Part shown: positions 6,359-41,981 of the stretch, piece by piece
Layout of the letters: every line of letters begins with the position of its first letter
How positions within the stretch are numbered: the first letter of the stretch is position 1
Origin: Tautonia plasticadhaerens
Lineage (GTDB): Bacteria; Planctomycetota; Planctomycetia; Isosphaerales; Isosphaeraceae
Length of the DNA stretch: 64,000 nt
Assembly: GCF_007752535.1 (NCBI RefSeq)
Contig: NZ_CP036427.1
Coordinates: forward strand, 124,001-188,000
Direction of reading: 5' to 3'
Position numbers and translations under genes: made by a program
Notes under the pieces: model-generated
What the model was told of the DNA's origin: nothing
The model's database searches: none
Seen by the model: the letters and a program-made list of their open reading frames with translations, nothing else

Positions 6359-6388
6359 CGGGCTCCTCCGTCGCGACGGCCCTCATAA

Positions 6389-6529: not shown

Positions 6530-6542
6530 ACGGGCCTGCGGC

Positions 6543-18623: not shown

Positions 18624-19832
18624 TCAGCCGCCCAGCAGCGGCAACGGCTCGAACTCCCCGCCCAGCGCCGCCCCGGCCGGCAGCCCCATCCAGCCGCTCA
18701 GCACGGTCGCGTAGACGCGGCGGAAGTCGACGGCCGTCGCCAGGTCGCCGCCCTCCAGCTCCTCCAGGCTCGGGGACGGCCCGGCGACCCCGGCCGCCAC
18801 GCCGGGGCCGGCAACCAGCACCGGCCCGGCCGTCCCGTGGTCGGTGCCGGCCGAGCCGTTCTCGGCTACCCGGCGGCCGAATTCCGAGAAGCAGAGCACC
18901 AGCACCCGTTCGGCCAGCCCCGCGGCCGCCAGGTCGTCGAGGAACGCCTTCAGCGCCCCCGACAGCTCCGACAGCAGGCGGCCGTGCGTCGGGAGCTGCC
19001 CGGCGTGGGTGTCGTAGCCCGGCTGCGTGGCGTAGTAGGCCCGCGCCGCGTGGCCGGCCTTCAGCAGCCGGGCGACGGTGCGCAGCCGGTCGGCCAGGCC
19101 GGTGGCCGGGTAGCGGGCGTCGTCGCCCTCGCGGGCGAGCTCGGCGAGCTGGTCGGCGGTGGCGTAGGCGTCCAGCGTGCTGCGGCGGACGAACGCGGCG
19201 AGGTCGTCGCCCGGTGCGGGGGCCGGGGAGGCTGCCGCCCCGAGGCCGGCGACGAGCGGGGCGGGCGCGTAGTCGTCGAGCCGCTCGAGGGAGGCGGCCG
19301 AGGCGCGGCGGCCGATCAATGCGGTCGGCGACGGCCCGGGGCCGACGAGGAGCGACGGCGAGCCGTCGAGGCCGGACTCGTCGAAGGCGCGGCCGAGCCA
19401 GCCCTGGCCGGTGCGGTCCTCGGGGTCGAGCCGCGCCGAGTGCCAGATGGCCATCGACTCGAAGTGCGATCGGTTCGGGTTCGGATAGCCGACGCCCGGC
19501 ACGATCGCCAGCCGGCCGGACTCGAGCAAGTCGGCCGCCCCTCGCATCGACGGGTGCAGGGCCAGGCGGTCGTCAATCTTGATCAGCCGGTCGGCCGGCA
19601 GGCGGAGGGCGTCGCGGTGGCGGGCGTAGCCGTCGTCTTCGAAGGGGACGACGGTGTTGATCCCGTCGTTGCCGCCGTCGAGCTGGATCACGACCAGCAC
19701 CCGCGCGTCTGCCTCGGGCCGGGCGGCGCGGGCCGACCGGGCGAGGAAGCCGGGGACCATCGGGGCCAGGGCGATCAGCGACGACGAGCGCAGGCCCGCC
19801 CTCAGGAAGTCGCGGCGGCTGGGAGTCGGCAT
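18624..19832 (-). CDS. DUF1501 family exported protein
   Basis: This 402-residue protein begins with a twin-arginine signal (SRRDFLRAGLRSSSLIALAP), followed by the DUF1501 hallmarks LVVIQLDGGNDGINTVVPFED, YPNPNRSHFESMAIWHSA and ERVLVLCFSEFGRRVAENGSAGTDHGTAGP. The fold is of the alkaline phosphatase/sulfatase superfamily, so a hydrolase function outside the cytoplasm is plausible. It is the last gene of a run that begins with a membrane-tethered sigma factor and DUF1800; in planctomycetes DUF1800 and DUF1501 genes are regularly neighbours. ATG 19830-19832 was chosen because it places the Tat motif at the N-terminus. Confidence 0.93.
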   Translation of the reverse strand: MPTPSRRDFLRAGLRSSSLIALAPMVPGFLARSARAARPEADARVLVVIQLDGGNDGINTVVPFEDDGYARHRDALRLPADRLIKIDDRLALHPSMRGAADLLESGRLAIVPGVGYPNPNRSHFESMAIWHSARLDPEDRTGQGWLGRAFDESGLDGSPSLLVGPGPSPTALIGRRASAASLERLDDYAPAPLVAGLGAAASPAPAPGDDLAAFVRRSTLDAYATADQLAELAREGDDARYPATGLADRLRTVARLLKAGHAARAYYATQPGYDTHAGQLPTHGRLLSELSGALKAFLDDLAAAGLAERVLVLCFSEFGRRVAENGSAGTDHGTAGPVLVAGPGVAAGVAGPSPSLEELEGGDLATAVDFRRVYATVLSGWMGLPAGAALGGEFEPLPLLGG

Positions 19833-19870: not shown

Positions 19871-21265
19871 TCAGCAGATCTGGGCCTCGGGGCAGGCGAG
19901 CACCAGGGCGACGGCGCGGCGGGCGGTCTCCGGCCCCCACGACGCGGAGGCGCCGGCGACCGAGGCGAGGCGATCGAGCCAGCCGCCGCCGGGGATCGCG
20001 CCCAGCAGCAACTCGGCGACGAGGCCGATCAGCGCCTCGGGGCCACCGCTTCGGCCGTGGCGATCGGCCAGGGCGAGGGCGTCGAACGGCATCGAGCGGC
20101 CGATACCCACCCCCTCGACCAGCGCCGCGGCGAAGTTCGCCCGGCCGATGACTGCCCGGCCGCCGAGCCACGACCGGCCCCCGGGCCAGCCGCCGACGTT
20201 GGGCGGGTCGAACAGCTCCTGGCCGAGCCGGGCGGCCCAGTCGGCCAGCACCAGGGTGCTCGGCGGCGGGTCGAGCAGCTCCAGCGCCCGCACCGGGGCG
20301 GCGACGAAGGGGACCGGGTCGACGACTCTCGTGCCGAGGTTCGCCTCGTCGAAGAACGCCCATGAGCGGAGGATCAGGGCGACCGCCCGGCCGATGTCCA
20401 GGTCGTGGGCCCTCAGGTCCTCGGCCAGTGCCCCGGCCGCCGCCTCGTCGACGGCCCCCTCGCCCATGAACGTATCGCAGAGCCGCCAGGCGAGCCGATC
20501 GGCCGTCGCCGGGTGCTCCCGCAGCAGGGAGACCATGTCGTCGGCGCCGAGGCGGCCGGAGCGGCCGAGGACGGACTTCTCGCCGTCGTCGTGCCGGGGG
20601 GCGACGAAGGTCGCCCCGCCGTCCTCGACGTCCCAGCCGGTCAGGGCCCGGGCCGCCTCCCTGACGTCGACTTCGGAGTAGTGGCCGACGCCCAGGGTGA
20701 ACAGCTCCATCAGCTCGCGGGCGAGGTTCTCGTTAGGCCGGCCCTTGCGGTTGCTCGGCGAATCGAGCCAGACCAGCAGCGCGGGGTCCTCGACCATCGC
20801 GCCGAGCAGGTCGCCGAACGGGGCGCGGGCCTGCTCGCGCAGCGATTCGTTCTGGCGTCGCATCAGACCGAGGTCGTCGACCTTCCGGTTGCCGGTGGCG
20901 AAGTGGTTGTGCCACATCAGGGTCAGGCGCTCGCCGAGCGGGTCGGGCCCGAAGAGGATGCGGTAGAACCACCAGGCCTTCAGGCGGTTCGGGTCGTTGG
21001 AGGCGACCGCCGCGTCGGCGAGGAGTGTCGACGTGCGGTCGAACCCCTCGGCCACGCCGTACTCCCGGGATTTGCCCGCCAGCAGGCGGTCGACGCCCGG
21101 CCCGGGGCCGTCGGCCAGGTCGCGTTGCAGCTCGTCCCAGGTCGCGGCGAAGCCGGCCCGGCGGTGCAGGTGGACGACCCGGCGGAGGTCCCAGGGCTGC
21201 CCGGCATCCGGCTCGTAGGGATCCCAGGCCGCCCCCGAAGACGGGCCATCGATCGGCCGGGTCAT
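19871..21265 (-). CDS. DUF1800 family protein
   Basis: This 464-residue protein has the DUF1800 signatures HLHRRAGFAATWDELQRDL near the N-terminus, RLTLMWHNHFATGNRKV, NENLARELMELFTLGVGHY and NVGGWPGGRSWL. The biochemical role is not established; these proteins accompany DUF1501 hydrolases and are thought to act with them. ATG 21263-21265 overlaps the TGA of the upstream sigma-factor fusion as ATGA, and DUF1501 starts 38 bp downstream, so the three are probably one transcript. Confidence 0.92.
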   Translation of the reverse strand: MTRPIDGPSSGAAWDPYEPDAGQPWDLRRVVHLHRRAGFAATWDELQRDLADGPGPGVDRLLAGKSREYGVAEGFDRTSTLLADAAVASNDPNRLKAWWFYRILFGPDPLGERLTLMWHNHFATGNRKVDDLGLMRRQNESLREQARAPFGDLLGAMVEDPALLVWLDSPSNRKGRPNENLARELMELFTLGVGHYSEVDVREAARALTGWDVEDGGATFVAPRHDDGEKSVLGRSGRLGADDMVSLLREHPATADRLAWRLCDTFMGEGAVDEAAAGALAEDLRAHDLDIGRAVALILRSWAFFDEANLGTRVVDPVPFVAAPVRALELLDPPPSTLVLADWAARLGQELFDPPNVGGWPGGRSWLGGRAVIGRANFAAALVEGVGIGRSMPFDALALADRHGRSGGPEALIGLVAELLLGAIPGGGWLDRLASVAGASASWGPETARRAVALVLACPEAQIC

Positions 21266-24200
21266 GGTCGTTCCTCCTCTCGGACCTCGCCAAGGTCCAG
21301 TGTTTCCCCCGAGCCTGCCTCGACCCTCTCGGCGATCGGGTGGCCGAGCATCCCCTGGGTCCGCATCGGACGGATCTGGTGCGGCTGGCCCGGGAACAGG
21401 CCTTCGATGCGAAAGCGACCGTCGGCGTCGGTCAAGGGGAGCGTGCCGTAGTCGTGGTCGAACACGCTGTGCCTCCGCTCTCCCTGCTGCGCCGCGACGT
21501 CGAGCCGCACGCCGGCCCGTGGCCTCCCGTCCCGGTCGACGAGCCTGCCCAGGGCGACGCCCCAGGGGACGAGCGTGACCCTGATCGGTTGTTCGTGCTC
21601 TTCAGAGAGGTCGAGTTCGAGCGAGGCCGCGAGGCCCTGCCCCTTATGCTGGAAGCGGAGGGTGCGGGTCCCCGACCGCGGCAGCGCGTCGAGCGTAAAG
21701 GCCGCCTCGTCCTGGGGATCGGTCCAGTTCGAGAAGTGCCAGTGGCCCGAGACCCGATAGCCGGAGAGCGGGCGGCCTTCGGGATCCTCAACGAGGATCG
21801 TCCTCGTCCGGCCGGGCGTCAGGGCGAGGTCGCACCGGAACGAGTCCGCACCTTTGGGGATGTCGACTTCGGCCAGTTCGTTGATGGCGCCGAGGTAGAA
21901 GTCACGAGGGGCGATGTCCAGCCCCTCGAACCGGGCGCCTCCATCCTCCTGGTCCTTCACGGTGAGATAGCGTCGGCCTCCGGACGCGACCACGCCGATC
22001 ACCCCTTGGCCGGGGAGCCCCGGCACGCGATAGCGACCCTCGACGTCGAGCCGGAAGTCGGCCCATCGCTCGGCGCCGCCGAGCCCGGGACACTCGGCGA
22101 GGCTCGGGTTGTCCCGGAGGACGCCGTACTGGACGAATCCCCCCCGGATCGGCTCTCCGGTCTCCTCGTCGGTGACCCGGCCCTCGATCCAGACGCCCCG
22201 CTTGAGCGGGATGTCCATCGTCGAAGGGTCGAGGCCTGGGGGCGGGGCCTCGACCGCCACGATCGAGGGCAGGTAGGGTTGGTCGACCGGCGGGAAGGCG
22301 ATGATGTCGTTCCCCTCGGCCGGCGACATCCCGTCCAGGCGGAAACGCCCCTCGCCGTCCGTCGAGGCGGAGAGTTGAGTCGCCCCGATCAGCGGGAACT
22401 CGGCGAACTGGTAGCTGTGGACCTGGACGCCGGCGAGCGGCTCGCCGGTGTCGATGTCCCGGACGACGCCCTCGATCGGCCGGCTGGGCGAGGCGAAGTG
22501 GTCGAAGTTCGGGCCGTAGTATTGCACCACTCCCCAGTTGGTGCTGCCTGCCCCATAGGGCAGGTCGAACGCCTCCGCCCCGGGCCGGGTCATGACGTGC
22601 GGGGCGGCATAGCGGATCCCGGGGCCGACGATCTGCAGCTCGATCAACCGCTCGCGGCCGACCCCGTCGAGGCGGAAACGCCCCTCGGCGTCGGTGGTCA
22701 GCTCCCCGGAGAGGCCGAGCTCCTGGGCCATGATCGAACGGCCGAGGAATCGGTTCTCCAGCTCGTTCGCCCCGGCGTCCCCGGTGCGGGCCGCCCGCAG
22801 CCACTCGGAAAGGTCGCCTTCCTCGGGCTCCTGGACCAGCCTCGGGCGGATTGCCACTCCTGCGACCGGCCTGCCCTCGAGATCGAGCACCCGCCCGAGA
22901 ATCGGCACGTCATCAACCCTGAACCGCAGCTGCGCGTCCTGCTCCCCCGCATCCACCCGGGCGAAGCCGGGGGCGAGCCCCTCGGAGATCGCGACCAGCG
23001 GCACGCCGGACTCGAATTCCGAACCCGAGACCGCGAGGCGGAAGCGCCCCTCCTCGTCGGCCGCGGTGTGGTGCCGGGTCTTCCCATCCTCGCGGATGTA
23101 GACCCTGGCATGGGGGGCGGGCTTCGCGTCCGGCCCGAGGACGACGCCCCGGATCGTCGTTCCGGGGTCGAACTCCATCAGGACGGGGGCCGGCGGGGCA
23201 TCGGCCGGGAGGTCGACCTCGAGCAATGACTCGGGGAGGACGGCGGGCAGCTCGGGCAGCGTGGCCGACGCGGGCTCATCCTCGCCGAGCCCGGCGATCC
23301 GATCGGCGCCGTGCCCGGGGGCATAGCGTTGGAACGCGGACTGGGCGATGAGCAGGCCGTGGCCGGGGGGGACGACGAGCGTGAAGCTGCCGTCCTCGGC
23401 GGTGCGGGCCTTGTCCCATTCGACCCAGTGGTTGCCCGTCCCGATGCCGGAGATCGCGTCGGCGGCCGGGTTGTCGAGGAAGGGCAGGTAGGTGACCTCG
23501 GCCAGGACGGGGGCGCCGGTCCCGAGCTCGGCCAGCCGGCCCCGGAGGACGACGCCCGGCATCAGGTCGAAGTCGACGGTCACCGGGCCCAGGCCCGGTC
23601 CGCCGGGGGCCGATCCCGAGGCTCCGACGAACGGGAGATCCCCCGGCAGGGCGGCGACCTCGTACCGCTCGAGCTTGGGCACCCCGAGCATCCGGTAGCG
23701 GCCCTCGGCGTCGCTCTCGGCCTCGACGAGCACGTCCCCGCCCCGCCCCCGGAGCAGGACGCCCGCGATGGGCCGGCCCGTCTCGGCGGACCGGACGATG
23801 CCCTCGATCGGCACGGACGGCTGGGCAAGGTGCTCGAAGGGGTTCCCGAGGAGCGTCTCCGGCCGGGTGCCCGGCCCGTCGAATTCCTCGAGCACCTGGC
23901 CCGGCCCTGAGCGGTTCGTGGCGTAGAGTTGCTCCGTCGCGATCGTCGGCGCGGCGATCGTGAACAGCAGGAGCCGATCGCGACCGATGCCAGCGATCGA
24001 GAGGCGGCCCTCCGCGTCGGCGACGACCTCGCGCGGGAGCCCCGCGACCCGGGCATCCAGGGACGGGGACCGTAGCCGCCGCCGCGCGCCCTCGCCCCCC
24101 GCCGCGTCCAGGGCCGCCAGGAGATCCTCCCCCTCGGCCGCGATGATCGCATAAGGCCGGACGACCGCGCCCGGCACCGGCCGGCCCTCCAGGTCGAGCA

Positions 24201-25515
24201 CCCGGCCGCGGAGCGGGACGCCCTCCTCGACGAGCCGGAGGGTCTGGCCGTCGAGCCCCTCGGGGCCGTCGGCCTGGATCCAGGCCGGGCCGGAGCCGGG
24301 GGCCGAGGCGGCCAGGATCGGCCGGTCGACGGGCACGAGCTCGACCGCGTCGAGCCCTCGCAGGCGGGAGCGGTCGACCTCGATCCGGTAGGAGCCGTCC
24401 GGGCCGCTGCGGGCCCGGATGGCGCCCGGGGGGAAGTCGTCGCCCGGTGCGATCTGGAAGACGGTCACGTCCGCCCCGGCGACGGGGGCGCCGTCGGGCC
24501 CGACGACCCGGCCGGCGATCGAGACGAGGTCGGCGGGCGGGGCGTCGTCGGATCGCGGGGGCGACGGCGCGGGGGCCGCCCGGGGGGCGGGGGATTCGTC
24601 GGACCGGGACGAGGCGGAGGGCGCGGGCCGCGGAGAGGACTCGCCTCCGTCGGTGGCCCTCCCCGGGTCGATCGGGCTGACGATCACCAGGGCGGCAACG
24701 GCGGTCGTGACCACCCCCTTGATCGGCACCGTCCCGGCGACCTGGGATAGCCGGGCGACGAGGGCGGAGACCGTCCCGGCCAGGATCGCCGCCGGGCCGG
24801 CGGTCGAGAGTTCGGCCGCCCGGCGGGCGACGGAGGCGGATCGGGCCAGGGCGTCGGCGGCCGAGACGGCGTCGGGGCGGAGCAGCTCCAGCAGGCCGAC
24901 CGTCGGGACGACCCCGGCGCGGGCCAGGCGGGAGCGGAGCAGCTCCCGGGCGTCTCCCAGGCGACGGCGGACGGTCTTCTCGCCCCACCGCAGGGCCGAG
25001 GCGGCCTCCTCGGTCGTCTTCCCCTCGAGGTAGCAGAGCACGACCGGCAGGCGGCAGCGCTCGGGCAGGCGGCCGACCTCCAGGTGGACCGCCTCCCGCA
25101 GCTCGGCGAGCGGGGCCGGGTCGGCCGCCCGACGGTCGGCGGCGTCGGCCGCCTGGCGCTCGACGGCCCGCCGCCGGGCGGCCTCGGCCGAGGTGCGGGC
25201 GGCGGCCCGGTGCGCGACCCGGTGCAGCCAGCCGCCGAGCGAGTCGCCCCGGACCTCGAACCGATCGGCCCTGCGGGCCAGGGTGAGGAAGGTGGCCTGG
25301 AAGGCGTCCTCGGCGTCCCCCGGATCCCGGGTCGCGGCGCGGCAGACGGCCAGGACCATCGGCCCGTGGCGGTCGACCAGGGCGGCGAAGGCCCCCTCGT
25401 CGCGGTCGCGGGCGAACCGGGTGAGGAGCTGGGCGTCGGTCAGGCCGGCGACGCTCCCCTCGGCGAAGAGCCGGCGGACCAGGCACAGGGCGACGCCGGA
25501 GGCGGGTCGAGGCAT
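21262..25515 (-). CDS. Membrane-tethered ECF sigma factor with carboxypeptidase-like repeats (paralogue 1)
   Basis: This is a 1,417-residue fusion. Residues 38-105 form sigma region 2 (EDAFQATFLTLARR). Residues 145-200 form region 4 (CYLEGKTTEEAASALRWGEKT). One membrane helix lies at about 264-282. A Pro/Ser/Asp-rich linker is followed by more than 1,000 residues of repeated carboxypeptidase regulatory-like beta domains, marked by GRVLDLEGRPVPGA and DAEGRFRLDG. The sigma part would face the cytoplasm and the beta domains the periplasm, so it could be a one-protein signal transducer. It is the first of three tandem paralogues and overlaps DUF1800 by ATGA. The start MPRPASGVALCLVRRLF is shared in style with the next gene. 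Confidence 0.88.
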   Translation of the reverse strand: MPRPASGVALCLVRRLFAEGSVAGLTDAQLLTRFARDRDEGAFAALVDRHGPMVLAVCRAATRDPGDAEDAFQATFLTLARRADRFEVRGDSLGGWLHRVAHRAAARTSAEAARRRAVERQAADAADRRAADPAPLAELREAVHLEVGRLPERCRLPVVLCYLEGKTTEEAASALRWGEKTVRRRLGDARELLRSRLARAGVVPTVGLLELLRPDAVSAADALARSASVARRAAELSTAGPAAILAGTVSALVARLSQVAGTVPIKGVVTTAVAALVIVSPIDPGRATDGGESSPRPAPSASSRSDESPAPRAAPAPSPPRSDDAPPADLVSIAGRVVGPDGAPVAGADVTVFQIAPGDDFPPGAIRARSGPDGSYRIEVDRSRLRGLDAVELVPVDRPILAASAPGSGPAWIQADGPEGLDGQTLRLVEEGVPLRGRVLDLEGRPVPGAVVRPYAIIAAEGEDLLAALDAAGGEGARRRLRSPSLDARVAGLPREVVADAEGRLSIAGIGRDRLLLFTIAAPTIATEQLYATNRSGPGQVLEEFDGPGTRPETLLGNPFEHLAQPSVPIEGIVRSAETGRPIAGVLLRGRGGDVLVEAESDAEGRYRMLGVPKLERYEVAALPGDLPFVGASGSAPGGPGLGPVTVDFDLMPGVVLRGRLAELGTGAPVLAEVTYLPFLDNPAADAISGIGTGNHWVEWDKARTAEDGSFTLVVPPGHGLLIAQSAFQRYAPGHGADRIAGLGEDEPASATLPELPAVLPESLLEVDLPADAPPAPVLMEFDPGTTIRGVVLGPDAKPAPHARVYIREDGKTRHHTAADEEGRFRLAVSGSEFESGVPLVAISEGLAPGFARVDAGEQDAQLRFRVDDVPILGRVLDLEGRPVAGVAIRPRLVQEPEEGDLSEWLRAARTGDAGANELENRFLGRSIMAQELGLSGELTTDAEGRFRLDGVGRERLIELQIVGPGIRYAAPHVMTRPGAEAFDLPYGAGSTNWGVVQYYGPNFDHFASPSRPIEGVVRDIDTGEPLAGVQVHSYQFAEFPLIGATQLSASTDGEGRFRLDGMSPAEGNDIIAFPPVDQPYLPSIVAVEAPPPGLDPSTMDIPLKRGVWIEGRVTDEETGEPIRGGFVQYGVLRDNPSLAECPGLGGAERWADFRLDVEGRYRVPGLPGQGVIGVVASGGRRYLTVKDQEDGGARFEGLDIAPRDFYLGAINELAEVDIPKGADSFRCDLALTPGRTRTILVEDPEGRPLSGYRVSGHWHFSNWTDPQDEAAFTLDALPRSGTRTLRFQHKGQGLAASLELDLSEEHEQPIRVTLVPWGVALGRLVDRDGRPRAGVRLDVAAQQGERRHSVFDHDYGTLPLTDADGRFRIEGLFPGQPHQIRPMRTQGMLGHPIAERVEAGSGETLDLGEVREEERP

Positions 25516-25552
25516 CGGGTGGATCTCCGCTCGGGTGAGTCGATTGCGCTCA

Positions 25553-25599
25553 CCCCGTATAGGGGCCGAGCGGGGTCGGGCCGGTCAGCTTTTCCCACG
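25553..25599 (-). promoter_or_regulatory. Conserved promoter-like block upstream of sigma fusion 1
   Basis: On the minus strand GGGAAAAGCTGACCGG (25582-25597) is followed about 20 bases later by the hairpin CCCCTATACGGGG (25553-25565), then about 37 bases to the ATG. The same two-part arrangement occurs before the two sister genes. I infer an autoregulated ECF-type promoter with GGGAAAA as the -35-like box; the hairpin covers the likely -10/start region. Confidence 0.5.
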
Positions 25600-25664
25600 T
25601 TCCCCGAATCCCTGGGCGATCGGGGCGTCATGGAACCGCGTCGACCGCCGGTCGGGACGCCGGT

Positions 25665-28625
25665 TCACTCGGGCGGCTCGACGACCACGTCGCCGAGGTC
25701 CTTCTCCTCGCCGGCCTCGACGGTCAGCTCGGTGATCGGCTGGCCCAGGATCCGATTGTCCCGATCCAACCAGAAGGTGTACGTCAGGCCGGGCAGCAGC
25801 CCTCGGATGTGGAACCGGCCGTCGTCGCCCAGCGTGATCAACTCGTCCGGCACCGAACCGACGCGGCTCCCGTCGGCCCCCGCCTTGACGAAATCCCGGG
25901 GCTTCAGCGCCGCCGAGGCGAAGGGGCGCCCGTCCGGGTCGACGAGACGGCCGGTGACCTCGGCCCAGGGCTGCATCTCGATCGCCAGCGCGTCCGGCCC
26001 GTCCCCCCCGGCCATGGCCATGCCGGCGAGCCGGTCGCCCTCGTGCGCGACGAGGATCAGGCGGCGCTCGTCGGGCCCGAGGGCCGTCACGTCGAACGTC
26101 TCCTCCCCCTCGGGCTCTCGCCGCCATAACCGGTAGAAATCGGCCTTCCCGAACGCCCAGACGCCCGTCCTTGGTTTCCCGTCGGGGCCGACCGCGCGGA
26201 CCTCGATCCAATGGCCGGGGTCGAGCGGGATCTCGCAGGGGAACGTGTCGGCCCCCTCCGGGATGTCGACCTCGACCATGGTGTTGAACGAGCTGGGGAT
26301 GCACTGGGACGGGACCGTGCGCAGGAAGCCGCCGTTATCCTCGGCCTTCAGGTGGTCGACCCCCAACCCGATCCGGAACCCCTCATTGCCGCTCCGGGCG
26401 CCGACGAGTCCCCGGCCGGGGATGCCGACGATCCGGAAGGTGCCGTCCTCCTCGGACTGGAGCGGGAAGGAGATGCGGGGGTAGTCGAAGCCCCGGTAGT
26501 CCTCGCGGTGGGGGTTATCCTCGAAGATAAAGTATTGGAGCCCGGCCCGGGAGACGCCCTCGCCGGTCACTTTGTTGAACACGCGGCCGACGATCCAGGC
26601 CCCCCGCTTCATCTCGAAGTCGATCGTGACCGGGGCCGTCGGGTCGCCGGGCTGCACGTCTCGCAGCAGCATCGGATAGGGTTCGCCGTCCGGCGGCCTG
26701 ACGAGGACGGCGTTGGAATTGCCGAGCGAATCCTCCCCGGTCGAGAGCCCGGTGAGCCGATAGCGGCCCTCGGCGTCGGTCGTCGTCTGGATGTAACCGA
26801 GCGGGTTCCCCAGGGCCGAGGGGCTCTGGACGACCGCCCCGGCCAGCGGCTCGCCGGTGTCGGCGTCGCGGACCGAGCCGACGACGACCTGCGTCGGGCC
26901 GGCGACGAGCTCGAATTCGTTGCCGTAATAGGAGGCCTTGTGGCGTTCCTCGGTGTCGTGGGGGTTGAACGTCGGGAAGCGGAGCAGTTCACCGGGGCGG
27001 GTGCGGGCGAAGACGACCGTCGTCTCGATCGTCTGCGCCTCGATCCAGAGCCCCACGACCCGCTCCCGGCCGATCCCCTCGAGCCGGAACCGGCCGTCGG
27101 CGTCGGTGGTCGCCGGGCCGATGAGCCGCTCGACCGACCGGCCCGGCCAGCCGGAGAGCAGGCGATACTGGACCGCATAGGCGGCCTGCTCGCGCTCCAG
27201 GGTCGTGAGCCACTCTTCGAGGTCCTCGTCGGGGCTCCGGGAGAGCGACTGCACCCGGATGGTCGCCCCGGGAACAGGCTGGCCGTCGATGTCGAGGATC
27301 CGGCCCGAAATGGGGACATCGTCCGGCACGAGGCGGAGCGTCGGCGGCTCGCCCTCGGTCGGGGACTCGGCGATCGCCGGCCCGAACCCGTCGGCCATCG
27401 CGATGATGTGGGCCGGGATCTGTCCGGCTGCCTCGGCGGCCTCCTCGGCGGCCTTCGGGGCGGGGACCTGAACCGTGAAGCGGCCGTCGGCGTCGGCCCG
27501 GGCGGCGGCCTCGGGCTCCGGGGCCGGGCCGATCGGCTGATAGTCCGGCTCGATGACGAAGACGCGGGCCCCGGCGGCCGGCATGCCGTCCGGCCGCTCG
27601 ACGCGGCCGGTCAGGGTCACGCGCTTCATGGGCTCGGCCTCGTCGTCTTTGTCGTCGGGAGCCTGGGGTTCGCCTCGCAGGATCGGGGACGGGATCTCCG
27701 GGGCACCCGGGGCCCCGGCCAGGGTGACGCGGCCGGTCAGGGGTGGTCCGGAGGCCCCGGGGGCCCCGACGGGGGCGGGGGCACCCGGGATCAGGCAGAG
27801 GGCCGCCCCGAGCGAGGCCACCGAGGCGACCCTCACGGTCCCCTGGGACGCCAGCCGGGCGAGCCGGGAGGCCCACGCGGTCGCCGCGGCGACGAGGCCC
27901 GCTCCGAGCCCGGGGCCGGCCGGGGAGCTCGCCGCCAGCCGGGCGAGCCGATCCGCCCGGAGGGCCGACGCGGCGGCCGACGGCCGATCGGGGCGGAGGA
28001 GGGCCAGCACGCCGACGGCCGGCGCGATCCCCTCGCGGGTCAGCCGCGATCGCAGCAGGTCCCTCGCGTCGGCCAGGCGGCGGCGGACGGTGGCCTCGCC
28101 CCAGAGCAGCTCGGCGGCGGCCTGGGCGTGGGTGCGGCCCTCCAGGTGGCAGAGCACGACCGGCAGGCGGAGCCGGTCGGGCAGGTCGGCGACGGCCCAA
28201 TGCACGGCGGCGATCAGGTCCGAGTCGGCCGTCGCCCCGCGCCGGGCGGCCTCGGCGGCGGCGCGGCGGTCCAGGGCCCGGCGGCGGGCGTCGGCGGCAT
28301 TGAGCCGGCGGGCCTCGCGGTGGGCGACCCGGTGCAGGTAGCCGCCGAGCGATTCGCCGGCCGGCCGCAGCACGCCGGAGCGCCGGGCGAGGGTCAGGAA
28401 GGTGGCCTGGAAGGCGTCCTCGGCGACGTGGGCGTCGCCGAGCACGGCGCGGCAGACGCCCAGGACCATCGGCCCGTGGCGGTCGACCAGGGCGGCGAAG
28501 GCCGCCTCGTCGCGGTCGGCGGCGAAGCGGCCCAGCAGCTGGGCGTCGGTCAGCCCGGCGAGGGACCCCTCGGCGAACAGGCGGTGCAGGTGCAGCAGGG
28601 CGGCGCCGGTCACGGGGCGGGGCAT
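25665..28625 (-). CDS. Membrane-tethered ECF sigma factor with carboxypeptidase-like repeats (paralogue 2)
   Basis: This 986-residue protein has the same plan as its neighbour. It starts MPRPVTGAALLHLHRLF, has sigma region 2 with AEDAFQATFLTLARRSG, region 4 with CHLEGRTHAQAAAELLWGE, a hydrophobic helix at about 270-290, a proline-rich linker and several carboxypeptidase regulatory-like domains (GRVERPDGMPAAGARVFV, GRILDIDGQPVPGATI). It is about 430 residues shorter than paralogue 1, having fewer beta domains. The stop lies 149 bp from the start of paralogue 1, and the intervening DNA contains that gene's promoter block, so each copy probably has its own promoter. Confidence 0.88.
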   Translation of the reverse strand: MPRPVTGAALLHLHRLFAEGSLAGLTDAQLLGRFAADRDEAAFAALVDRHGPMVLGVCRAVLGDAHVAEDAFQATFLTLARRSGVLRPAGESLGGYLHRVAHREARRLNAADARRRALDRRAAAEAARRGATADSDLIAAVHWAVADLPDRLRLPVVLCHLEGRTHAQAAAELLWGEATVRRRLADARDLLRSRLTREGIAPAVGVLALLRPDRPSAAASALRADRLARLAASSPAGPGLGAGLVAAATAWASRLARLASQGTVRVASVASLGAALCLIPGAPAPVGAPGASGPPLTGRVTLAGAPGAPEIPSPILRGEPQAPDDKDDEAEPMKRVTLTGRVERPDGMPAAGARVFVIEPDYQPIGPAPEPEAAARADADGRFTVQVPAPKAAEEAAEAAGQIPAHIIAMADGFGPAIAESPTEGEPPTLRLVPDDVPISGRILDIDGQPVPGATIRVQSLSRSPDEDLEEWLTTLEREQAAYAVQYRLLSGWPGRSVERLIGPATTDADGRFRLEGIGRERVVGLWIEAQTIETTVVFARTRPGELLRFPTFNPHDTEERHKASYYGNEFELVAGPTQVVVGSVRDADTGEPLAGAVVQSPSALGNPLGYIQTTTDAEGRYRLTGLSTGEDSLGNSNAVLVRPPDGEPYPMLLRDVQPGDPTAPVTIDFEMKRGAWIVGRVFNKVTGEGVSRAGLQYFIFEDNPHREDYRGFDYPRISFPLQSEEDGTFRIVGIPGRGLVGARSGNEGFRIGLGVDHLKAEDNGGFLRTVPSQCIPSSFNTMVEVDIPEGADTFPCEIPLDPGHWIEVRAVGPDGKPRTGVWAFGKADFYRLWRREPEGEETFDVTALGPDERRLILVAHEGDRLAGMAMAGGDGPDALAIEMQPWAEVTGRLVDPDGRPFASAALKPRDFVKAGADGSRVGSVPDELITLGDDGRFHIRGLLPGLTYTFWLDRDNRILGQPITELTVEAGEEKDLGDVVVEPPE

Positions 28626-28660
28626 CGGCTCGGTCCTCCTGGCTCGGTGTCGTGGCCTCT

Positions 28661-28705
28661 GCCCTACTGAGGGCCGCCGGGGCCCGACCCGATCACCTTT
28701 CGCCC
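28661..28705 (-). promoter_or_regulatory. Conserved promoter-like block upstream of sigma fusion 2
   Basis: On the minus strand GGGCGAAAGGTGATCGG is followed by the hairpin GCCCTCAGTAGGGC (28661-28674). The layout and spacing match the blocks before paralogues 1 and 3. The stem sequence differs from the other two while complementarity is kept. Confidence 0.5.
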
Positions 28706-28739
28706 GACGATCGGAGCAGGCCGGCCACCGGCCCCGCGC

Positions 28740-31670
28740 CTACGGGGCTTCCGGCTCGATCACCACGTCGCCCACTTCCTTCACCTCGCCGGGGCCGACC
28801 ACGACGTCCTCGAAGGCCGTCCCGAGCGGCCCGCGCCCCTCGTGGACCGCATAGGTATCGTACCGGAGGCCGGGCACCAGGCCCTCGATGCGAAATCGAC
28901 CGTCGGCGTCGGGATGGAACTCCTCGGTCGAGAAGCCTCGCCCCGGGTCGAATTCGCCGCCGATGATCCGGAGGTGGACGCCGCGGCGCAGGCGGTCGTC
29001 CTCGTCGACGAGCCGCCCCGCGACGACGCCCCACGGCCCGAGCCCCAAGGTCATCGCGCCGTGCTCGTCGCCGCTGAGCAACAGTGAGCCGACCAACCCT
29101 CGCCCCGGGTGCCAGAGGATCAGGTGGCGGCGATGCCCGGGCTGCAGGTTGTCGATGACCAGGGAGCCGGACTCGACCTCGCCCGGAGCCACGAAGCGAC
29201 GGTCCGTCATGATCTCGTACCGTACGCCGTCGAGCGGCTCGCCGTCGGGGGCGACCGCCGTGATGGACACGGACCCGCCGCGCCGGAACGCGATGTCCCG
29301 GGTGATGGCGTCGGCCCCCGACGCGACCTCGACGGGGACGATCCGGTGGTAGAACTGGGAGTAGCAGGTCCCGGGGACGGTGTCGAAGGTGCCGTTCGTC
29401 GCGTCGAGCCCCCCGATCGCGTCTGCGCCGTCGCCGCGCGGGTAGCGGGTCGACGCCGATCGGGCCGCCAGCAGGCCCCGCCCCGGCAGGCCGACCAGCG
29501 CGAAGGAGCCGTCCCGCTCGGTCTCGGCCCTCGGCTCCAGGCTGATGGCCCCGCGGAAGCCGGGATAGTCGTCGACGTGCGGGTTCTCCCGGGAGGCGAA
29601 GTAGGAGACCACGGCGGGGGCCGGCGCGCCGGTGGCCGCGTCGGTCACGCGGCCCCGGATGACCACCCCGCGCGCCAGCCCAATGCCGAACGGAACGGGC
29701 TGGTGGGCCGGGGTGGTAGCCTCGGCCACCAGGATGGCGTTGGGATAGGGCCGGTCAGCGCCCGGCCAGACGAACAGGGTGTAGCGATCGGCCCGCGTCA
29801 GGCCGGTCAGCTCGTAGCGGCCCTCGGCGTCGCTGAGCGTCTCGACGCCGGGGGCGGAGGCCAGGTTGTTCGGCTCGTAGGCCCTCCCCCGGATCGTCAC
29901 GCCCGCCAGCGGCACGCCGGTATCCCGGTCGCGGACGACGCCGACGATCGGCTTGGCGGGCGCGGCGGCATGATCGAGCCGGGCCCCGTGGTAGACGACC
30001 GGAGGCGCGGCGACTCGGTTCGGGTCCGGGGCACGGACGGCCGGCACGTCCCTGGTCATGGCGAAGAGGTGCGAGGCGGCGATGCCGGGGCCGGTGAGGA
30101 TCAGCTCCGCCAGCCGCTCGCGGCCGAGGCCGTCCAGCCGGAAGCGGCCGTCGGCGTCGGTGGCCCAGGAACGCTCGAAGGGGACGCCCTCCAGCCCATC
30201 CCAGGGCCCTCGGCCCCGCTCCCGGGCGGCGGCGAGCCAGGCATCGAGCGCGTCGCCGTCCCCGGGTCGGAACAGGGTGTTAGAGCGGACCCGGGCGCCG
30301 GCGACGGGTCGACCTTCCAGGTCGACGACCCGGCCGGTGATCGGCACGTCGTCCACGGCGAGCCGGATCGTCGCCTCGGCGGGGGCGTCAGAGCGGTCGG
30401 GGATTTCCTCCCACCCCGGCCCGTAGCCTTCGGCCGTCGCCAGGAGGGTCAACGCCCGCCCTGCCGGCCCCGGGACGGACTCGATGTCGTACCCCTCCGG
30501 CACGGCAATCGTGAACGACCCGTCGCCCCGGCTTGCCGTGTCGGGCCGGGCCTCGTCGATGCCGCCCACCGGCTTGTACAGGATCGCCCGCACGGCCGCC
30601 CCCGCCACCGGCCTGCCATCCGGGGCGACGACCCGGCCGCCGAGCCGGACGACCCCCTCGCCACTCCGGTCGGACGGGAGAGGCCCCTCGGGCTCCCGGT
30701 CCGGCCGGACATTGGCTGTCGGAGGACGCTCGGGAGTCGGTGGCGACGCGGCGGTGCGGCTGGCCGCCTCCGGCTGCGGGCCGCCCCCGGCTCGCAGATC
30801 GCCGGCTCCCGCGATCCCCAGCCAGGTCGCCGCCCCGAGCGCGAGGGCGGCGACCCCGGTCGCCCGGAGCCTGGCCAGCAGCGCGGCCCGGAACACGCCG
30901 CCGGCCAAGGCCAGCGCCGAGGCGCTGGCCCCGACGGCGCCGCGGCCCAGGGCGAGGGAGCGGGCGGCGCGGGCGGTGGCCGTCGCCAGCGACTCCCGGA
31001 CCTCGGCCGAAGCCCGGTGGGTGCCGAGCAGGGCAGCCAGGCCGGCCGCCGGCGCCAGGCCGCGCCGTCCCAGCCGGGCCTTGAGCAGCTCGCGGGCCTC
31101 GGCCAGCCGCCGCCGCACCGTCGCCTCGCCCCGGCCCAGCGCCGCGGCGGCCTGGGCGTGGGTGCGGCCCTCCAGGTAGCAGAGCACCACCGGCCCCCGG
31201 CAGCGGGAGGGCAGCCGCCCGATCTCGACGTGCACGGCGTCGAGCAGGTCGACGCGACGGGCCCTGTCGTCGACGTCGGCCACCTCGACCGGGACGGTGG
31301 CCGTCCCCTCGCGGGACGACCGGCGGGCCCGCTCGGCCCGGGCCCGGGCGTCGACCCGCAGGGCCACGCCGTGCAGCCAGCCGCCGACCGAGCCGCCGGC
31401 GACCCGCAGGGAGCCGGAGCGCCGGGCGAGGACGAGGAAGGTGGCCTGGAAGGCGTCGTCGGCGTCGTGCGGGTCGCGGAGGACGCCGCGGCAGGTGGCC
31501 AGGACCATCGGCCCATGGCGGTCGACCAGCGCGGCGAAGTCCGCCTCGTCGGGGTCGGCGGCGAACCGGTCGAGCAGCTCGGCGTCGGTCAGGCCCGCCA
31601 CGCCACCGGAGTCGTAAAGGGAACGGAGATGCCGCAGGGCGGCTCCGGTGATGGCGTTGCTGCGGGACAT
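28740..31670 (-). CDS. Membrane-tethered ECF sigma factor with carboxypeptidase-like repeats (paralogue 3)
   Basis: This 976-residue protein has sigma region 2 (ADDAFQATFLVLARRSG), region 4 (CYLEGRTHAQAAAALGRGEAT), a membrane helix at about 265-285 (GVAALALGAATWLGIAGAG), a long disordered linker and repeated beta domains (GRVVAPDGRPVAGAAV, GRVVDLEGRPVAGARV, DADGRFRLDGL). It begins MSRSNAITGAALRHLRSLYDSGG, slightly different from its sisters. Divergence among the three copies is substantial, so the duplication is not recent. Expected role: ECF sigma factor held at the membrane until an envelope signal or proteolysis frees it. Confidence 0.88.
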   Translation of the reverse strand: MSRSNAITGAALRHLRSLYDSGGVAGLTDAELLDRFAADPDEADFAALVDRHGPMVLATCRGVLRDPHDADDAFQATFLVLARRSGSLRVAGGSVGGWLHGVALRVDARARAERARRSSREGTATVPVEVADVDDRARRVDLLDAVHVEIGRLPSRCRGPVVLCYLEGRTHAQAAAALGRGEATVRRRLAEARELLKARLGRRGLAPAAGLAALLGTHRASAEVRESLATATARAARSLALGRGAVGASASALALAGGVFRAALLARLRATGVAALALGAATWLGIAGAGDLRAGGGPQPEAASRTAASPPTPERPPTANVRPDREPEGPLPSDRSGEGVVRLGGRVVAPDGRPVAGAAVRAILYKPVGGIDEARPDTASRGDGSFTIAVPEGYDIESVPGPAGRALTLLATAEGYGPGWEEIPDRSDAPAEATIRLAVDDVPITGRVVDLEGRPVAGARVRSNTLFRPGDGDALDAWLAAARERGRGPWDGLEGVPFERSWATDADGRFRLDGLGRERLAELILTGPGIAASHLFAMTRDVPAVRAPDPNRVAAPPVVYHGARLDHAAAPAKPIVGVVRDRDTGVPLAGVTIRGRAYEPNNLASAPGVETLSDAEGRYELTGLTRADRYTLFVWPGADRPYPNAILVAEATTPAHQPVPFGIGLARGVVIRGRVTDAATGAPAPAVVSYFASRENPHVDDYPGFRGAISLEPRAETERDGSFALVGLPGRGLLAARSASTRYPRGDGADAIGGLDATNGTFDTVPGTCYSQFYHRIVPVEVASGADAITRDIAFRRGGSVSITAVAPDGEPLDGVRYEIMTDRRFVAPGEVESGSLVIDNLQPGHRRHLILWHPGRGLVGSLLLSGDEHGAMTLGLGPWGVVAGRLVDEDDRLRRGVHLRIIGGEFDPGRGFSTEEFHPDADGRFRIEGLVPGLRYDTYAVHEGRGPLGTAFEDVVVGPGEVKEVGDVVIEPEAP

Positions 31671-31705: not shown

Positions 31706-31750
31706 GCCCTTAAATTGGGCCCGAGTGGGCCGAGCCGATCAACTTTTTCC
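31706..31750 (-). promoter_or_regulatory. Conserved promoter-like block upstream of sigma fusion 3
   Basis: On the minus strand GGAAAAAGTTGATCGG (31735-31750) precedes the hairpin GCCCAATTTAAGGGC (31706-31720), 35 bases before the ATG. AAAAGTTGATCGGCTCGG is the clearest version of the motif shared with paralogues 1 and 2. Confidence 0.5.
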
Positions 31751-33596: not shown

Positions 33597-34014
33597 TGGT
33601 ACAGCGAGCTCGATCTGAGGTCGATCAAGGTCACGCTGCAGATGGACCGGCTGCGGTGCAAGTCGCCGAAGCTGGTCCGCAAGGAGATCTGGGCCCACGT
33701 GCTCGCCTACAACCTGATCCGGACGGTGATGGCCCAGGCCGCAGCCGGCGCGGATGTGACGCCGCGGTCGATCAGCTTCAAGGCCACGCTCCAGGTGCTG
33801 GAGGCGTTCCGGCCGCTGATCGCCTGCCGGGCCGAGCTCGGCGCGGGGTACCTGGCGGCGCTGTACGAGCCGCTGCTCCGGGCGATCGCCGTGCACCGGG
33901 TCGCCGACCGGCCCGACCGGTTCGAGCCCCGCATGGTCAGGAAAGGGCCCAGGGGATACGAAGAATTGAAGAGGCCGCGGCGGGAGATCAAACTCCAGAT
34001 GCTCAAACGAGCTA
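33597..34014 (+). pseudogene. C-terminal fragment of an IS4-family transposase
   Basis: The frame reads WYSELDLRSIKVTLQMDRLR, then CKSPKLVRKEIWAHVLAYNL. This is the end of the catalytic domain of IS4 transposases, including the region after the catalytic Glu, and it continues to REIKLQMLKRA. The first 250 or so residues are absent. At 34013 an IS630 element is inserted; joining across it with one TA removed gives KRAR followed by a stop, the natural C-terminus. The IS4 copy was therefore present before the IS630 insertion. Confidence 0.8.
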
Positions 34015-35182
34015 GTGTCCTGAGTCGGAAATCCGTTGAATAACCTTGCGCCCTCGCCGTTCGCCCGGTAGAGTCTCCCCAAAGGAGACCCCAACATGGC
34101 GCGACCGCTGGCCGAGCTGGTCCTGAGCGACGACGAGCGGCAGACGTTGACGACCTGGGCGAGCCGCCCCGAGAGCACCCTGCGGCGCGCCACCCGCGCC
34201 CGCATCGTCCCGGCCTGCGCCGAGGGGCTGGAGAACGAGGCGGTCGCCGCCAGGCCCCGCGTCTGCTCGGCCACCGTTGGCACCCGGCGGCGGCGGTTCG
34301 TCGAGCGACGCCTGGAGGGGCTGGCCGACGAGCCCCGCCCCGGCGCGCCGCGCACGATCGCCGACGCCGACGTCGAGCGGGTCGTCACCGGGACGCTGGA
34401 GACCAAGCCCGAGTCGGCCACGCACTGGAGTACCCGCGGCATGGCCGAGGCCGCCGGCATGTCCCAGACGGCCGTCGGGCGGATCTGGCGCTCGTTCGGG
34501 CTGAAGCCGCACCTCCGCGAGACCTCCAAGCTCTCGACCGACCCGTTCTTCGTCGCGAAGGTCCGCGACGTCGTCGGGCTGTACATGAGCCCGCCGGAGC
34601 GGGCGATCGCCCTGTGCGTCGACGAGAAGAGCCAGGTCCAGGCCCTGGGCCGGACCCAGCCGCTGCTGCCGATGACGCCGGGGCAGGCCGGGCGGCCTAC
34701 CCACGACTACGTCCGCAACGGGACCACATCGCTGTTCGCGGCCCCGAACGTGGCTACCGGCGAGGTGATCGGTCGGTGCCACCGGAGGCACCGCGCGAAG
34801 GGGTTCCTGCGGTTCCTGGACGAGGTCCACGCCCGCGTCCCGCGCGAGCCGGGCGTGGAGGTCCACCTGGTGCTGGACCACTACGCGACCCACGAGACGC
34901 CGGCGGTGGAGCGATGGTTCCTGCGGCCCCCTGAGTACCACCCGCACTTCACTCCGACCCGCAGCTCTTGGCTGAACCCGGTCGGGCGGTTCTTCGCGGA
35001 GATCACCGAGACGCGGATCCGACGCGGCGTGTTCCGCAGCGTGGCGGCGTTGGAGGCGGCGATCCGAGGGTACCTGGAGACCACAACGCGGACCCCAAGC
35101 CGTTCGTGTGGGCCGCAGACGCCGACCTGATCCTCAACCGCATCAAGCGGGTTTGTAAACGGACTTCCGACTCGGGACACTA
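34013..35182 (+). mobile_element. IS630-family element 1, inserted in the IS4 remnant
   Basis: Imperfect terminal inverted repeats, GTGTCCTGAGTCGGAAATCC at 34015 and the complement of GGACTTCCGACTCGGGACAC ending at 35180, differ at two of the first 24 positions. A TA flanks each end, as expected for IS630 target duplication. The element is about 1.17 kb and carries one transposase gene with a frameshift near its end. Confidence 0.85.
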
Positions 35183-35183
35183 G
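34096..35183 (+). pseudogene. IS630-family transposase, damaged
   Basis: The main frame runs from ATG 34096 to TGA 35130 (344 codons) with an N-terminal helix-turn-helix and a DDE domain: first Asp in IALCVDEKSQVQ, second in VHLVLDHYATHE. The third position, normally WLNxxExxF, reads WLNPVGRFF, so the catalytic Glu is Gly. Near 35083 the frame shifts: ETTTRTPSRS should read ETHNADPKPFVWAADADL, whose sequence continues in the next frame through the right inverted repeat to TAG 35181-35183. One missing C in ACCAC explains it. Both lesions suggest an inactive copy. Confidence 0.85.
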
Positions 35184-35187
35184 GTGA

Positions 35188-35769
35188 TCCGGACCGCGTG
35201 GATGCAAGCCGCCGGGCTCCGCGGCCGAGAGGTCCGGGCCGACGACGTCGAGAGTGAGGTGGAGAGGATCGCGTCGGAGTTGGGCCTGCAGGTGTGCACC
35301 ACGACTACTTGACCGCCCTGCACGCCGATCGCGGTGGACAGGGGGGCAGGGAGGGGACCGTGTGATTGGAGCCCTTCCCTGGCCACCTCGCGAGAGTGAC
35401 GGTGCGGAGTGACGCCTGCGATCGTCGTCCGCCGATGCCCGATGGTCCCCTCGGCGTCGTCGTGGGCACCTGGAAACGAACGAATTCGGGGATGCCGCCG
35501 GTCTCGGGGCCGCGTCATCCCCGGCACATCTGTCCCGACAAGACGCGGCCCAGGGCCGCCACATCCGGCCCATCACCGTTCCGTCGGGGCACGGCCCGGT
35601 CGGAAGAGACGCCGAACGCATCGCTGCACACCAAAGAGAGAGACGATGAAGACGCACCGCGAGGACTGCGAATCGGACACACACGGGCCGCGAGACGCGA
35701 CCTACACCGATTGGTAACACGCCAACCGCTGTCCCGGCTCGTCAGCCAACCCGCGGCGTGCCCTGGGCC
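35188..35769. other. Region between two IS630 elements without an intact gene
   Basis: The first 130 bases encode a plausible short peptide tail (REVRADDVESEVERIASELG) that I cannot assign. At 35646-35717 a short frame, MKTHREDCESDTHGPRDATY, ends at TAA. It is in frame with sequence that, once the IS630 at 35770 is removed, runs into the sigma-like gene at 37008. This may be the decayed 5' part of that gene. Nothing else is recognisable. Confidence 0.4.
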
Positions 35770-37007
35770 TAGTGGGCCGTCAATCTTCATTTGACCGGTA
35801 GCGTAGGGTCCTGTCTTGATGAGGTTTGGCGAAGGCACGAACCTCATGAACCAGGAGCATCGCGATGGACAAGTACCGGGTCACCCTGACCGAGGAGGAG
35901 CGGGCTGAGTTGCAGCACCTGGTCTCCACCGGCAAGGCTGCCGCCCGCAAGCTGGCCCATGCCCGTATCCTCCTCCTGGCCGATACCAGAGCCGGCCAAG
36001 AGCACTCGGATGAGCGGATCGCCGACGCACTTGGGGTCAGCCTACGAACCATCGCCCGGGTCCGTCAGCGGTTCGTCATCGACGGCGTTCAGGCGGCCAT
36101 CAGTCGGGGTCCCCAGCCGCCACGACCGGACAAGATCAAGATCAAGGGGGACATCGAGCAGCGGTTGGTCCGACTGGCGTGCAGCGATCCGCCGCAGGGC
36201 CGATGCCACTGGACGCCGCAACTGCTGGCCGACGAACTGGTCGTCCTGGGCCTGGCCGAGTCGATCAGCACCGAGACCGTCCGCCAGGCTCTCAAAAGAA
36301 CGACATCAAGCCCTGGATCGTCGAGACCCGGTGCATCCCGCCCGAGGCCGACGCCGAGTACGTCTGGCGGATGGAGGACGTGATCCAGGTCCACCTGCGG
36401 CCCTACGACCCGAGGTTCCCGGTCGCCTGCTTCGACGAGGCGTGCAAGCAACTCTTCGGCGAGGTGCGGCCACCCAGGCGGTGCCGCTCGGGCCGACCGG
36501 CTCAGGTGGACTACGAGTACGAGCGGGAGGGCGTCTGCCACCAGTTGATGATGTGCGAGCCGCTGCGGGGCTGGCGTCATGTCAAGGTGACCGGACGCCG
36601 GACCCGGCGGGACTACGCCGGCTGCATCCGGGACCTGGTGGAGGTGCACTACCCCCGAGCGGAGAAGGTCCTGCTGGTGCAGGACAACTTGAATACGCAC
36701 GACGGGGCGAGCCCCTACGAGGCGTTCTCGCCGGAGGTGGCACGTCGGCTCCTGGACCGGATCGAGTTCCACTACACACCCAAGCACGGCAGTTGGCTGA
36801 ACATGGCCGAGACGGAGATCAGCGTCATGAACCAGCAATGCCTGGATCGCCGGCTGGAGGGTCCGGCCAAGCTGGCGGCGGAGGTGGCGGCCTGGGAACA
36901 CCGGCGGAACGTGAGGAGAGCCCGAATCCACTGGACCTTCACACTGGCCGCCGCTCGCCGGAAGCTGCGGAAGCTTTACCCGTCAATTGAAGATTGACGG
37001 CCCACTA
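35770..37007 (+). mobile_element. IS630-family element 2
   Basis: Terminal inverted repeats begin GTGGGCCGTCAATCTTCA at 35772 and end with the complement at 37005, continuing imperfectly for about 30 bp. TA dinucleotides flank both ends (35770-35771 and 37006-37007). The 1.24-kb element holds one transposase in two overlapping frames. It interrupts the sigma-like gene whose remainder begins at 37008. Confidence 0.88.
35865..36997 (+). CDS. IS630-family transposase made by -1 frameshifting
   Basis: Frame A starts at ATG 35865 (MDKYRVTLTEEERAELQHLV) and contains the helix-turn-helix region up to ETVRQALK. Frame B continues from KNDIKPWIVETRCIPP with the DDE domain, catalytic residues in VACFDEACKQL, LLVQDNLNTHD and GSWLNMAETEISV, ending at TGA 36997. 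The junction is CTCAAAAGAAC at 36291-36301; slipping back one base on the A run fuses LK to KN. The same arrangement in the related element at 42496 argues for programmed -1 frameshifting rather than a lesion. All DDE residues are present. Confidence 0.8.
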
Positions 37008-41204: not shown

Positions 41205-41247
41205 GACAACACAACAACTCCTTGCCCCCAATCCACCCCAATACGCA

Positions 41248-41835: not shown

Positions 41836-41981
41836 ACCGCTTATCGCAGGAGACCATACAGGAGGCGTCCCTCGATCTATTCCCGCACAACGCCATGGGC
41901 TTTCTGGTGGGCGGCGACCATCGCGAGTGGTGGTGGCGATACAGACGTGTCCTGGAGTCGCCGGATGTCCCCACTTTCTAA
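41832..41981 (+). CDS. Small 49-residue protein overlapping the preceding gene
   Basis: GTG 41832 overlaps the stop of the preceding gene as GTGA. The product (NRLSQETIQEASLDLFPHNA, then MGFLVGGDHREWWWRYRRVL) is short, amphipathic and tryptophan-rich, with a composition unlike a random frame. It may be a complete small protein or the front of a gene cut down by later rearrangement. Function unknown. Confidence 0.45.
   Translation: MNRLSQETIQEASLDLFPHNAMGFLVGGDHREWWWRYRRVLESPDVPTF

Follow-up and report, generated by a model that had tools for sequence, protein, structure and literature searches.

The window analysed here, a 64,000 nt stretch of the Tautonia plasticadhaerens genome, contains three consecutive genes on the minus strand in the order P3-P2-P1, each of which joins a sigma factor to a long C-terminal extension (Table 1). 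All three proteins score above the curated cut-offs of Sigma70_r2 and Sigma70_r4_2 in Pfam, and also pass the cut-off of TIGR02937 (sigma70-ECF, NCBIfam). They hold sigma-70 regions 2 and 4 without region 3, as is the case in ECF sigma factors. A hydrophobic segment follows about 60 residues further on, then a disordered stalk and finally CarboxypepD_reg domains, for which Pfam recognises seven stretches in P1, four in P2 and five in P3. C-terminal of the membrane segment there are approximately 690 residues in P3, 700 in P2 and 1,140 in P1. The original prediction, which was made from the sequence alone, had placed three tandem fusions of this kind at 21262–31670, and these coordinates proved to be exact. 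The domain order it had given, ECF regions 2 and 4, a membrane helix and carboxypeptidase regulatory-like domains, is likewise found in P1–P3 by Pfam and hydropathy analysis. It had further noted that there was no separate anti-sigma gene nearby, and among the neighbouring genes scanned around P1–P3 no match to an anti-sigma family of Pfam or NCBIfam was obtained.

Table 1. Features of the P3-P2-P1 locus and its downstream genes (positions refer to the window)
Feature	Position	Strand	Basis
Promoter-like element upstream of P3 (GGAAAAAGTTGATCGG ... CCAATTTA)	31714..31749	-	18.8 bits with family motif
P3, putative tethered ECF sigma/CarboxypepD_reg protein, 976 aa, first of the three genes	28740..31670	-	ORF, translation, Pfam
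P3 sigma-70 region 2, residues 48-106	31353..31529	-	Pfam PF04542 1.1e-8; structure match
P3 sigma-70 region 4, residues 145-196	31083..31238	-	Pfam PF08281 2e-9; structure match
P3 conserved helical linker from sigma-4 to membrane segment, residues 206-271	30858..31055	-	41-sequence alignment; predicted helices
P3 membrane segment, residues 272-290	30801..30857	-	Kyte-Doolittle peak 1.53 at family-conserved offset
P3 all-beta CarboxypepD_reg-like extension, residues 339-976	28743..30656	-	Pfam; AlphaFold model
Promoter-like element upstream of P2 (GAAAGGTGATCGG ... CAGTA), degenerate	28667..28702	-	6.0 bits; aligned with P3 and P1 upstream regions
P2, putative tethered ECF sigma/CarboxypepD_reg protein, 986 aa	25665..28625	-	ORF, translation, Pfam
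P2 sigma-70 region 2, residues 46-107	28305..28490	-	Pfam 1.8e-10
P2 sigma-70 region 4, residues 144-189	28059..28196	-	Pfam 4.7e-7
P2 probable membrane segment, weak, residues 266-284	27774..27830	-	Kyte-Doolittle 1.68 at conserved offset
P2 CarboxypepD_reg extension, residues 331-986	25668..27635	-	Pfam
Promoter-like element upstream of P1 (GAAAAGCTGACCGG ... CTATA)	25560..25595	-	13.4 bits; upstream alignment
P1, putative tethered ECF sigma/CarboxypepD_reg protein, 1417 aa, domain stack longer than in P2 and P3	21262..25515	-	ORF, translation, Pfam
P1 sigma-70 region 2, residues 46-108	25192..25380	-	Pfam 4.9e-13
P1 sigma-70 region 4, residues 141-193	24937..25095	-	Pfam 6.7e-9
P1 membrane segment, residues 261-279	24679..24735	-	Kyte-Doolittle 1.84
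P1 CarboxypepD_reg extension, residues 329-1417, 7 Pfam stretches	21265..24531	-	Pfam
DUF1800 gene, start overlapping P1 stop	19871..21265	-	Pfam PF08811 7e-96
DUF1501 gene, twin-arginine type N-terminus (SRRDFLRAG)	18624..19832	-	Pfam PF07394 2.8e-28; start by codon score

The stop codon of P1 and the start codon of the DUF1800 gene overlap as ATGA at 21262–21265, and P3-P2-P1 apparently head a DUF1800-DUF1501 operon. This operon had been overlooked in the original prediction, as had the size of the sigma family (about 30 members in this genome). Near chitin synthase genes of bacteria, DUF1800 and DUF1501 have been described as a Tat-linked pair whose function is unknown (PMC5122149). Eight loci in five genomes have a sigma-CarboxypepD gene immediately in front of this pair: in the window, at three loci of one Singulisphaera genome (L001, L181, L182), in another member of the same bacterial family (L180), at two loci of one groundwater genome (L002, L010) and in Gemmata sp. 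IIL30 (L008). The array of the groundwater planctomycete (L002:247–18194) is larger than that of the window: six consecutive tethered sigma genes, of which five encode CarboxypepD stacks, stand in front of DUF1800-DUF1501.

Two further regulatory clusters lie in the window. At 10100–14818 (plus strand) a Sigma70_ECF-type gene closely precedes a gene for a Ser/Thr kinase of 1358 aa that bears WD40 propellers, the two forming a planctomycete-type ECF-kinase pair, and at 2068–7886 (minus strand) there is a phosphorelay cluster, in which a PAS/HAMP histidine kinase gene adjoins receiver-like genes and one for a response regulator of the sigma-54 activator type. Transposase genes are present beside the operon within 34000–53800 (for instance, 45902–47275 and 50925–52550). 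The window sits on a 278 kb contig, apart from the 8.67 Mb contig of the same genome, and therefore the P1–P3 locus may be plasmid-borne. A search of plasmid records gave no near match; an Isosphaeraceae plasmid carries one relative, of the sigma part only. As no full-length relative was found in the three other members of the genus that were searched, the locus lies outside the genus core.

In its own genome (9.4 Mb) we counted 72 matches to sigma region 2. From 60 genomic loci and the window, 53 sigma ORFs were obtained and compared with a family profile. Thirty of these score above 217 bits and bear extensions or an anchor, whereas the remaining ones reach at most 115 bits and almost all end after region 4. 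The extensions of the 30 paralogs include CarboxypepD_reg (8), thioredoxin-like (3) and HlyD (2) domains, as well as SLBB/Poly_export and CBM9. A similar range is seen in 48 relatives from other genomes, 24 of which carry CarboxypepD_reg, and in both sets the domains mostly are of types usually found outside the cytoplasm. Judged by these comparisons, P1–P3 are members of a large family whose C-terminal modules are exchangeable. Among the matches listed when 84,980 species genomes were scanned with planctomycete sequences as seeds, relatives occur only in Planctomycetota, where they are found in Isosphaeraceae and Gemmataceae. In two Singulisphaera genomes (L006:7968–11811 and L009:7947–11785) a stand-alone CarboxypepD protein is encoded after an ECF gene with a different extension. 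A frameshift as the cause of these split ORFs was ruled out: one gene encodes the sigma factor with its different extension, and a second, separate gene the stand-alone sensor, which has a hydrophobic N-terminal segment of its own behind a basic stretch.

Upstream of P1, P2 and P3 a common block was found, GAAAA..TGAYCGG N16-18 ..TA..GGG. Motif discovery in 30 upstream regions of family genes in the own genome yielded the motif GGAAAA...GGAAC N17 GGCANTA, with a log-likelihood of 285 versus 123–132 in shuffled sets, and the element in front of P3 is one of only two sites of at least 15 bits in the 64 kb window. In the own genome, sites of at least 12 bits precede 80% of the family members, which formed the training set, but only 4% of the non-family ECF genes and 6% of the other window genes. 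Among 92 relatives from other genomes the fraction is 57%, versus 14% for shuffled sequences and 15% for the reverse strand; motif and boxes were derived from the very family that was tested here. A search for a local regulon by the strict pattern GAAARNTGAYCGG was abandoned. Of the four sites that it gave genome-wide, the P2 upstream site alone looks like a promoter, and the pattern was too strict, so that the P3 and P1 elements were missed. At another locus (L113:3552–7670) two divergent tethered ECF genes share one upstream region with a promoter-like site for each, a possible case of divergent control.

If these elements are promoters for the sigma factors encoded behind them, protein and DNA should vary together. 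We compared both by partial matrix correlation at three site thresholds, after removing one of each near-identical pair. Given sigma-2, sigma-4 covaries with the -35 box (r 0.24–0.26, p 0.001 at all three thresholds), and given sigma-4, sigma-2 covaries with the -10 box (r 0.16–0.25, p 0.003 or less), in an analysis that is exploratory and whose matrix permutation p-values can be optimistic. The crossed comparisons gave about 0.02 for sigma-2 and the -35 box, which is not significant, and 0.07–0.10 for sigma-4 and the -10 box, weakly significant only at the lowest site threshold; for the linker, the correlation with either box is about zero or slightly negative. Such domain-specific covariation is not expected from shared ancestry alone, because both sigma domains share that ancestry. 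We regard it as good evidence, at the level of sequence comparison, for autoregulation by a functional sigma factor; each of these factors probably switches on its own gene.

How the sigma part might be controlled was approached with an AlphaFold model of the sigma-linker-anchor portion of P3 (116 sequences, mean pLDDT 88). Its sigma-2 resembles region 2 of E. coli sigmaE bound to -10 DNA (Z 12.2, rmsd 1.7 over 91), and its sigma-4 resembles region 4 of SigL (Z 10.3, rmsd 1.6 over 73). In a comparison of the sigma domains with known sigma complexes, the modelled arrangement of the two domains was nearer to anti-sigma-bound SigW and CnrH (rmsd about 6.5–8) than to holoenzyme forms (rmsd 22–28). 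This compact arrangement is only a hint at intramolecular inhibition. The linker helices 207–219, 226–240 and 250–287 are predicted confidently, and the last one continues into the anchor. For an assignment of the linker to a known anti-sigma domain no support was obtained at the level of sequence: there was no meaningful Pfam match, and the sole PDB sequence match was spurious. A sigma factor fused in this way might act in the membrane in the manner of ToxR/CadC-type regulators, recruiting RNA polymerase to DNA close by, with the outer domains doing no more than altering its shape and without any proteolysis. The helices 226–240 and 250–287 that in the model run on into the membrane segment would suit such a mode, and the likeness to anti-sigma-bound SigW and CnrH is compatible with a built-in, reversible inhibition. 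However, that resemblance is weak evidence, since a free ECF factor might well come out compact when modelled by itself, and searches of Pfam and the PDB detected no resemblance between the linker sequence and an anti-sigma family. Moreover, membrane-bound anti-sigma systems are most often under proteolytic control (PMC8103513). Taken together, we consider action in the membrane a less likely mode, though the strongest of the alternatives to the reading developed below.

The nature of the extension becomes clearer from loci at which it is joined to another partner. At three of them (L178, L179, L184) the same CarboxypepD stack stands before DUF1800-DUF1501, but the protein carries an M56/BlaR1 peptidase domain at its N-terminus, and the fusion gene is closely preceded by one for Penicillinase_R (BlaI). 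An M56 fragment occurs in the same arrangement at L186. L183 and L185 hold M56 fusions, with the pair absent from the stretch examined, and DUF1800-DUF1501 was also found without a sigma or M56 sensor in stretches examined. For P1–P3, Pfam gave no match to the M56 domain; in other parts of the own genome there are five M56/BlaR1 matches in open frames of 468–1228 aa (for instance, C1:8374967 and C1:1331038). In a tree of the sensors, sigma and M56 fusions are mixed, and its well-supported branches force at least two changes of output (quick method). Thus, as far as sequences tell, one sensor stack is combined with two unrelated outputs, a sigma factor or M56/BlaR1 with BlaI. BlaR1-type proteins are established transmembrane sensor-transducers. 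That the same stack is fused to them is our strongest argument for regarding the extension as an external sensor. The sigma factor could also be mainly a local autoregulating switch and the extension a working component of the envelope, a scaffold or enzyme partner of DUF1800-DUF1501. Some family extensions do look like working exported proteins (thioredoxin, HlyD, polysaccharide export), family genes have their own promoter-like element, and in these operons the extension directly adjoins the pair. But its occurrence on a sensor-transducer next to a BlaI-type repressor gene favours sensing, and we give this explanation slightly less weight than action in the membrane.

By the Kyte-Doolittle scale the putative membrane segments of P1–P3, between linker and stalk, are weak if taken singly; that of P2 is short, and all three are below the family norm in hydrophobicity, P2 most of all. 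In 112 family proteins, however, a hydrophobic peak is found 50–65 residues past sigma-4 in nearly all cases, with a median hydropathy of 2.03 as compared with 0.98 for the highest peak in the rest of the extension; in 99% it tops everything later in the extension. Lysine and arginine show a positive-inside bias, with a mean of 2.35 on the N side versus 1.29 on the C side. Conserved position and orientation bias make the predicted membrane anchor convincing at the family level. In the full-length AlphaFold model of P3 a disordered stalk (about 279–338) leads to an all-beta stack, for which Foldseek finds resemblance to the stalks of extracellular pilins and surface proteins, with low TM-scores that indicate the general fold class only. 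It is very improbable that the segment stays uninserted and the beta domains are protein-binding modules of cytoplasmic proteins, a view to which the weak segments of P1–P3, the WD40 domains of other planctomycete ECFs and the detergent-soluble fractions in which proteomics places ECF factors (without proof of topology; PMC8567305) would lend themselves, given the fixed peak and charge bias in 112 relatives, the usually exported extension types and the existence of M56-fused and stand-alone relatives.

The original prediction had suggested a phylogeny of the fusion, and the trees give conflicting groupings for the sigma and sensor halves of P3. The sigma halves of P1–P3 form one clade (100/99) with P1 and P2 as sisters, and most sigma copies of L002 cluster among themselves. 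This clustering by locus points to tandem expansions that arose independently in more than one lineage. In the sensor tree P3 is joined to L192 (99/99), the sigma part of which is placed elsewhere in the sigma tree. Joining P3 and L192 in the sigma tree was rejected (AU p 0.0003), and a clade of all three window sensors was rejected at the borderline (AU p 0.048). In at least one copy, then, the two halves appear to differ in their history, owing either to gene conversion in the sigma part or to an exchanged sensor. These trees also bear on the earlier suggestion that divergence between the copies reflects separate signals. It holds in so far as the sensors, 36–39% identical to their nearest relatives, are more diverged than the sigma parts (53–56% identity within the trio) and partly differ in ancestry; on the side of the output, a promoter-like element common to all three genes makes overlap probable.

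Together, one-chain transmembrane signalling with autoregulation, in which sensing is linked to DUF1800-DUF1501, appears to us as the best reading of the locus and as a fairly probable one. The view that sensor, anchor and transcription factor are united in one chain is well supported by the conserved anatomy and the exported-type extension domains, and further by the M56 fusions at equivalent loci and the promoter covariation. The ECF domain would reside in the cytoplasm, held by the helical linker and one membrane helix, while on the far side of the cytoplasmic membrane the stalk would bear the prealbumin/Ig-like CarboxypepD_reg stack. There the stack may sense something tied to the exported DUF1800-DUF1501 proteins, perhaps a polymer, be it of the envelope or extracellular; a polymer or envelope component as ligand is guessed from the type of domain and from the pair beside it. 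The signal would make the sigma part accessible to RNA polymerase, through regulated proteolysis close to the membrane, which we slightly prefer, or through exposure while still tethered. It would then transcribe from the element upstream of its own gene in a positive autoregulation, and DUF1800-DUF1501 would be raised too, because P1 is translationally coupled to the pair. Three tandem copies would provide three sensors with overlapping output. Extending this to the whole family, we favour, with a confidence not far above an even chance, a planctomycete family of autoregulated single-protein sigma systems with interchangeable exported domains on one sigma-linker-anchor module. BlaR1/BlaI would have been swapped in or out at DUF1800-DUF1501 more than once with the sensor kept, and the sigma and sensor halves of tandem copies would recombine separately.

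Planctomycete ECF factors with a C-terminal extension as such are already known (PMC8567305, PMC8103513). The linkage of sigma-sensor genes to DUF1800-DUF1501 operons, the sensor exchange, the promoter covariation and the split phylogenies appear to be new. In the searchable literature, we found no paper joining planctomycetes, ECF factors and carboxypeptidase regulatory-like domains, nor any on sensor exchange between sigma and BlaR1, a promoter element with covariation or separate histories of the two halves; the main classification papers lie outside this literature. The locus provides a testable case of a sensor stack with two alternative outputs at equivalent operons and a predicted promoter for each sigma factor, and its candidate output is the common but uncharacterised DUF1800-DUF1501 pair. 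If the reading is true, it offers a modular way to read the inputs of the dozens of sigma factors in a planctomycete genome, and the table of sigma factors and promoters would be useful for orthogonal promoters.

Among the closest known systems are the extended ECF factors of planctomycetes. Types with C-terminal extensions, those with WD40 domains included, have reportedly been described by Jogler (2012) and Casas-Pastor (2021). The ECF types that bear WD40 domains are regarded as an innovation of the Planctomycetes (PMC8567305). Like P1–P3 the extended factors have regions 2 and 4, a long lineage-specific extension and many paralogs per genome, whereas P1–P3 differ in having CarboxypepD_reg repeats behind a membrane segment and an operon with DUF1800-DUF1501. 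Regulation is expected from the fused C-terminal part also in factors of the ECF41 and ECF42 type (PMC8103513), in which the extensions are SnoaL_2 or TPR domains instead of the membrane-anchored exported domains predicted for P1–P3. The BlaR1/BlaI systems of the sister loci share with P1–P3 the C-terminal CarboxypepD stack and the downstream DUF1800-DUF1501 pair, but in P1–P3 the same chain carries a sigma factor as its output, and there is neither a peptidase nor a repressor gene. With SigW/RsiW, SigmaE/RseA and CnrH/CnrY the common elements are the sigma fold and membrane signalling to an ECF sigma factor; here, in contrast, the predicted anchor and the outer domain belong to the sigma polypeptide itself, and a separate anti-sigma gene was not found among the genes scanned. 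In ToxR and CadC a single chain runs from a transcription domain in the cytoplasm through one membrane helix to a sensor in the periplasm. The layout predicted for P1–P3 is alike, but the cytoplasmic part would be a sigma factor in place of a DNA-binding activator.
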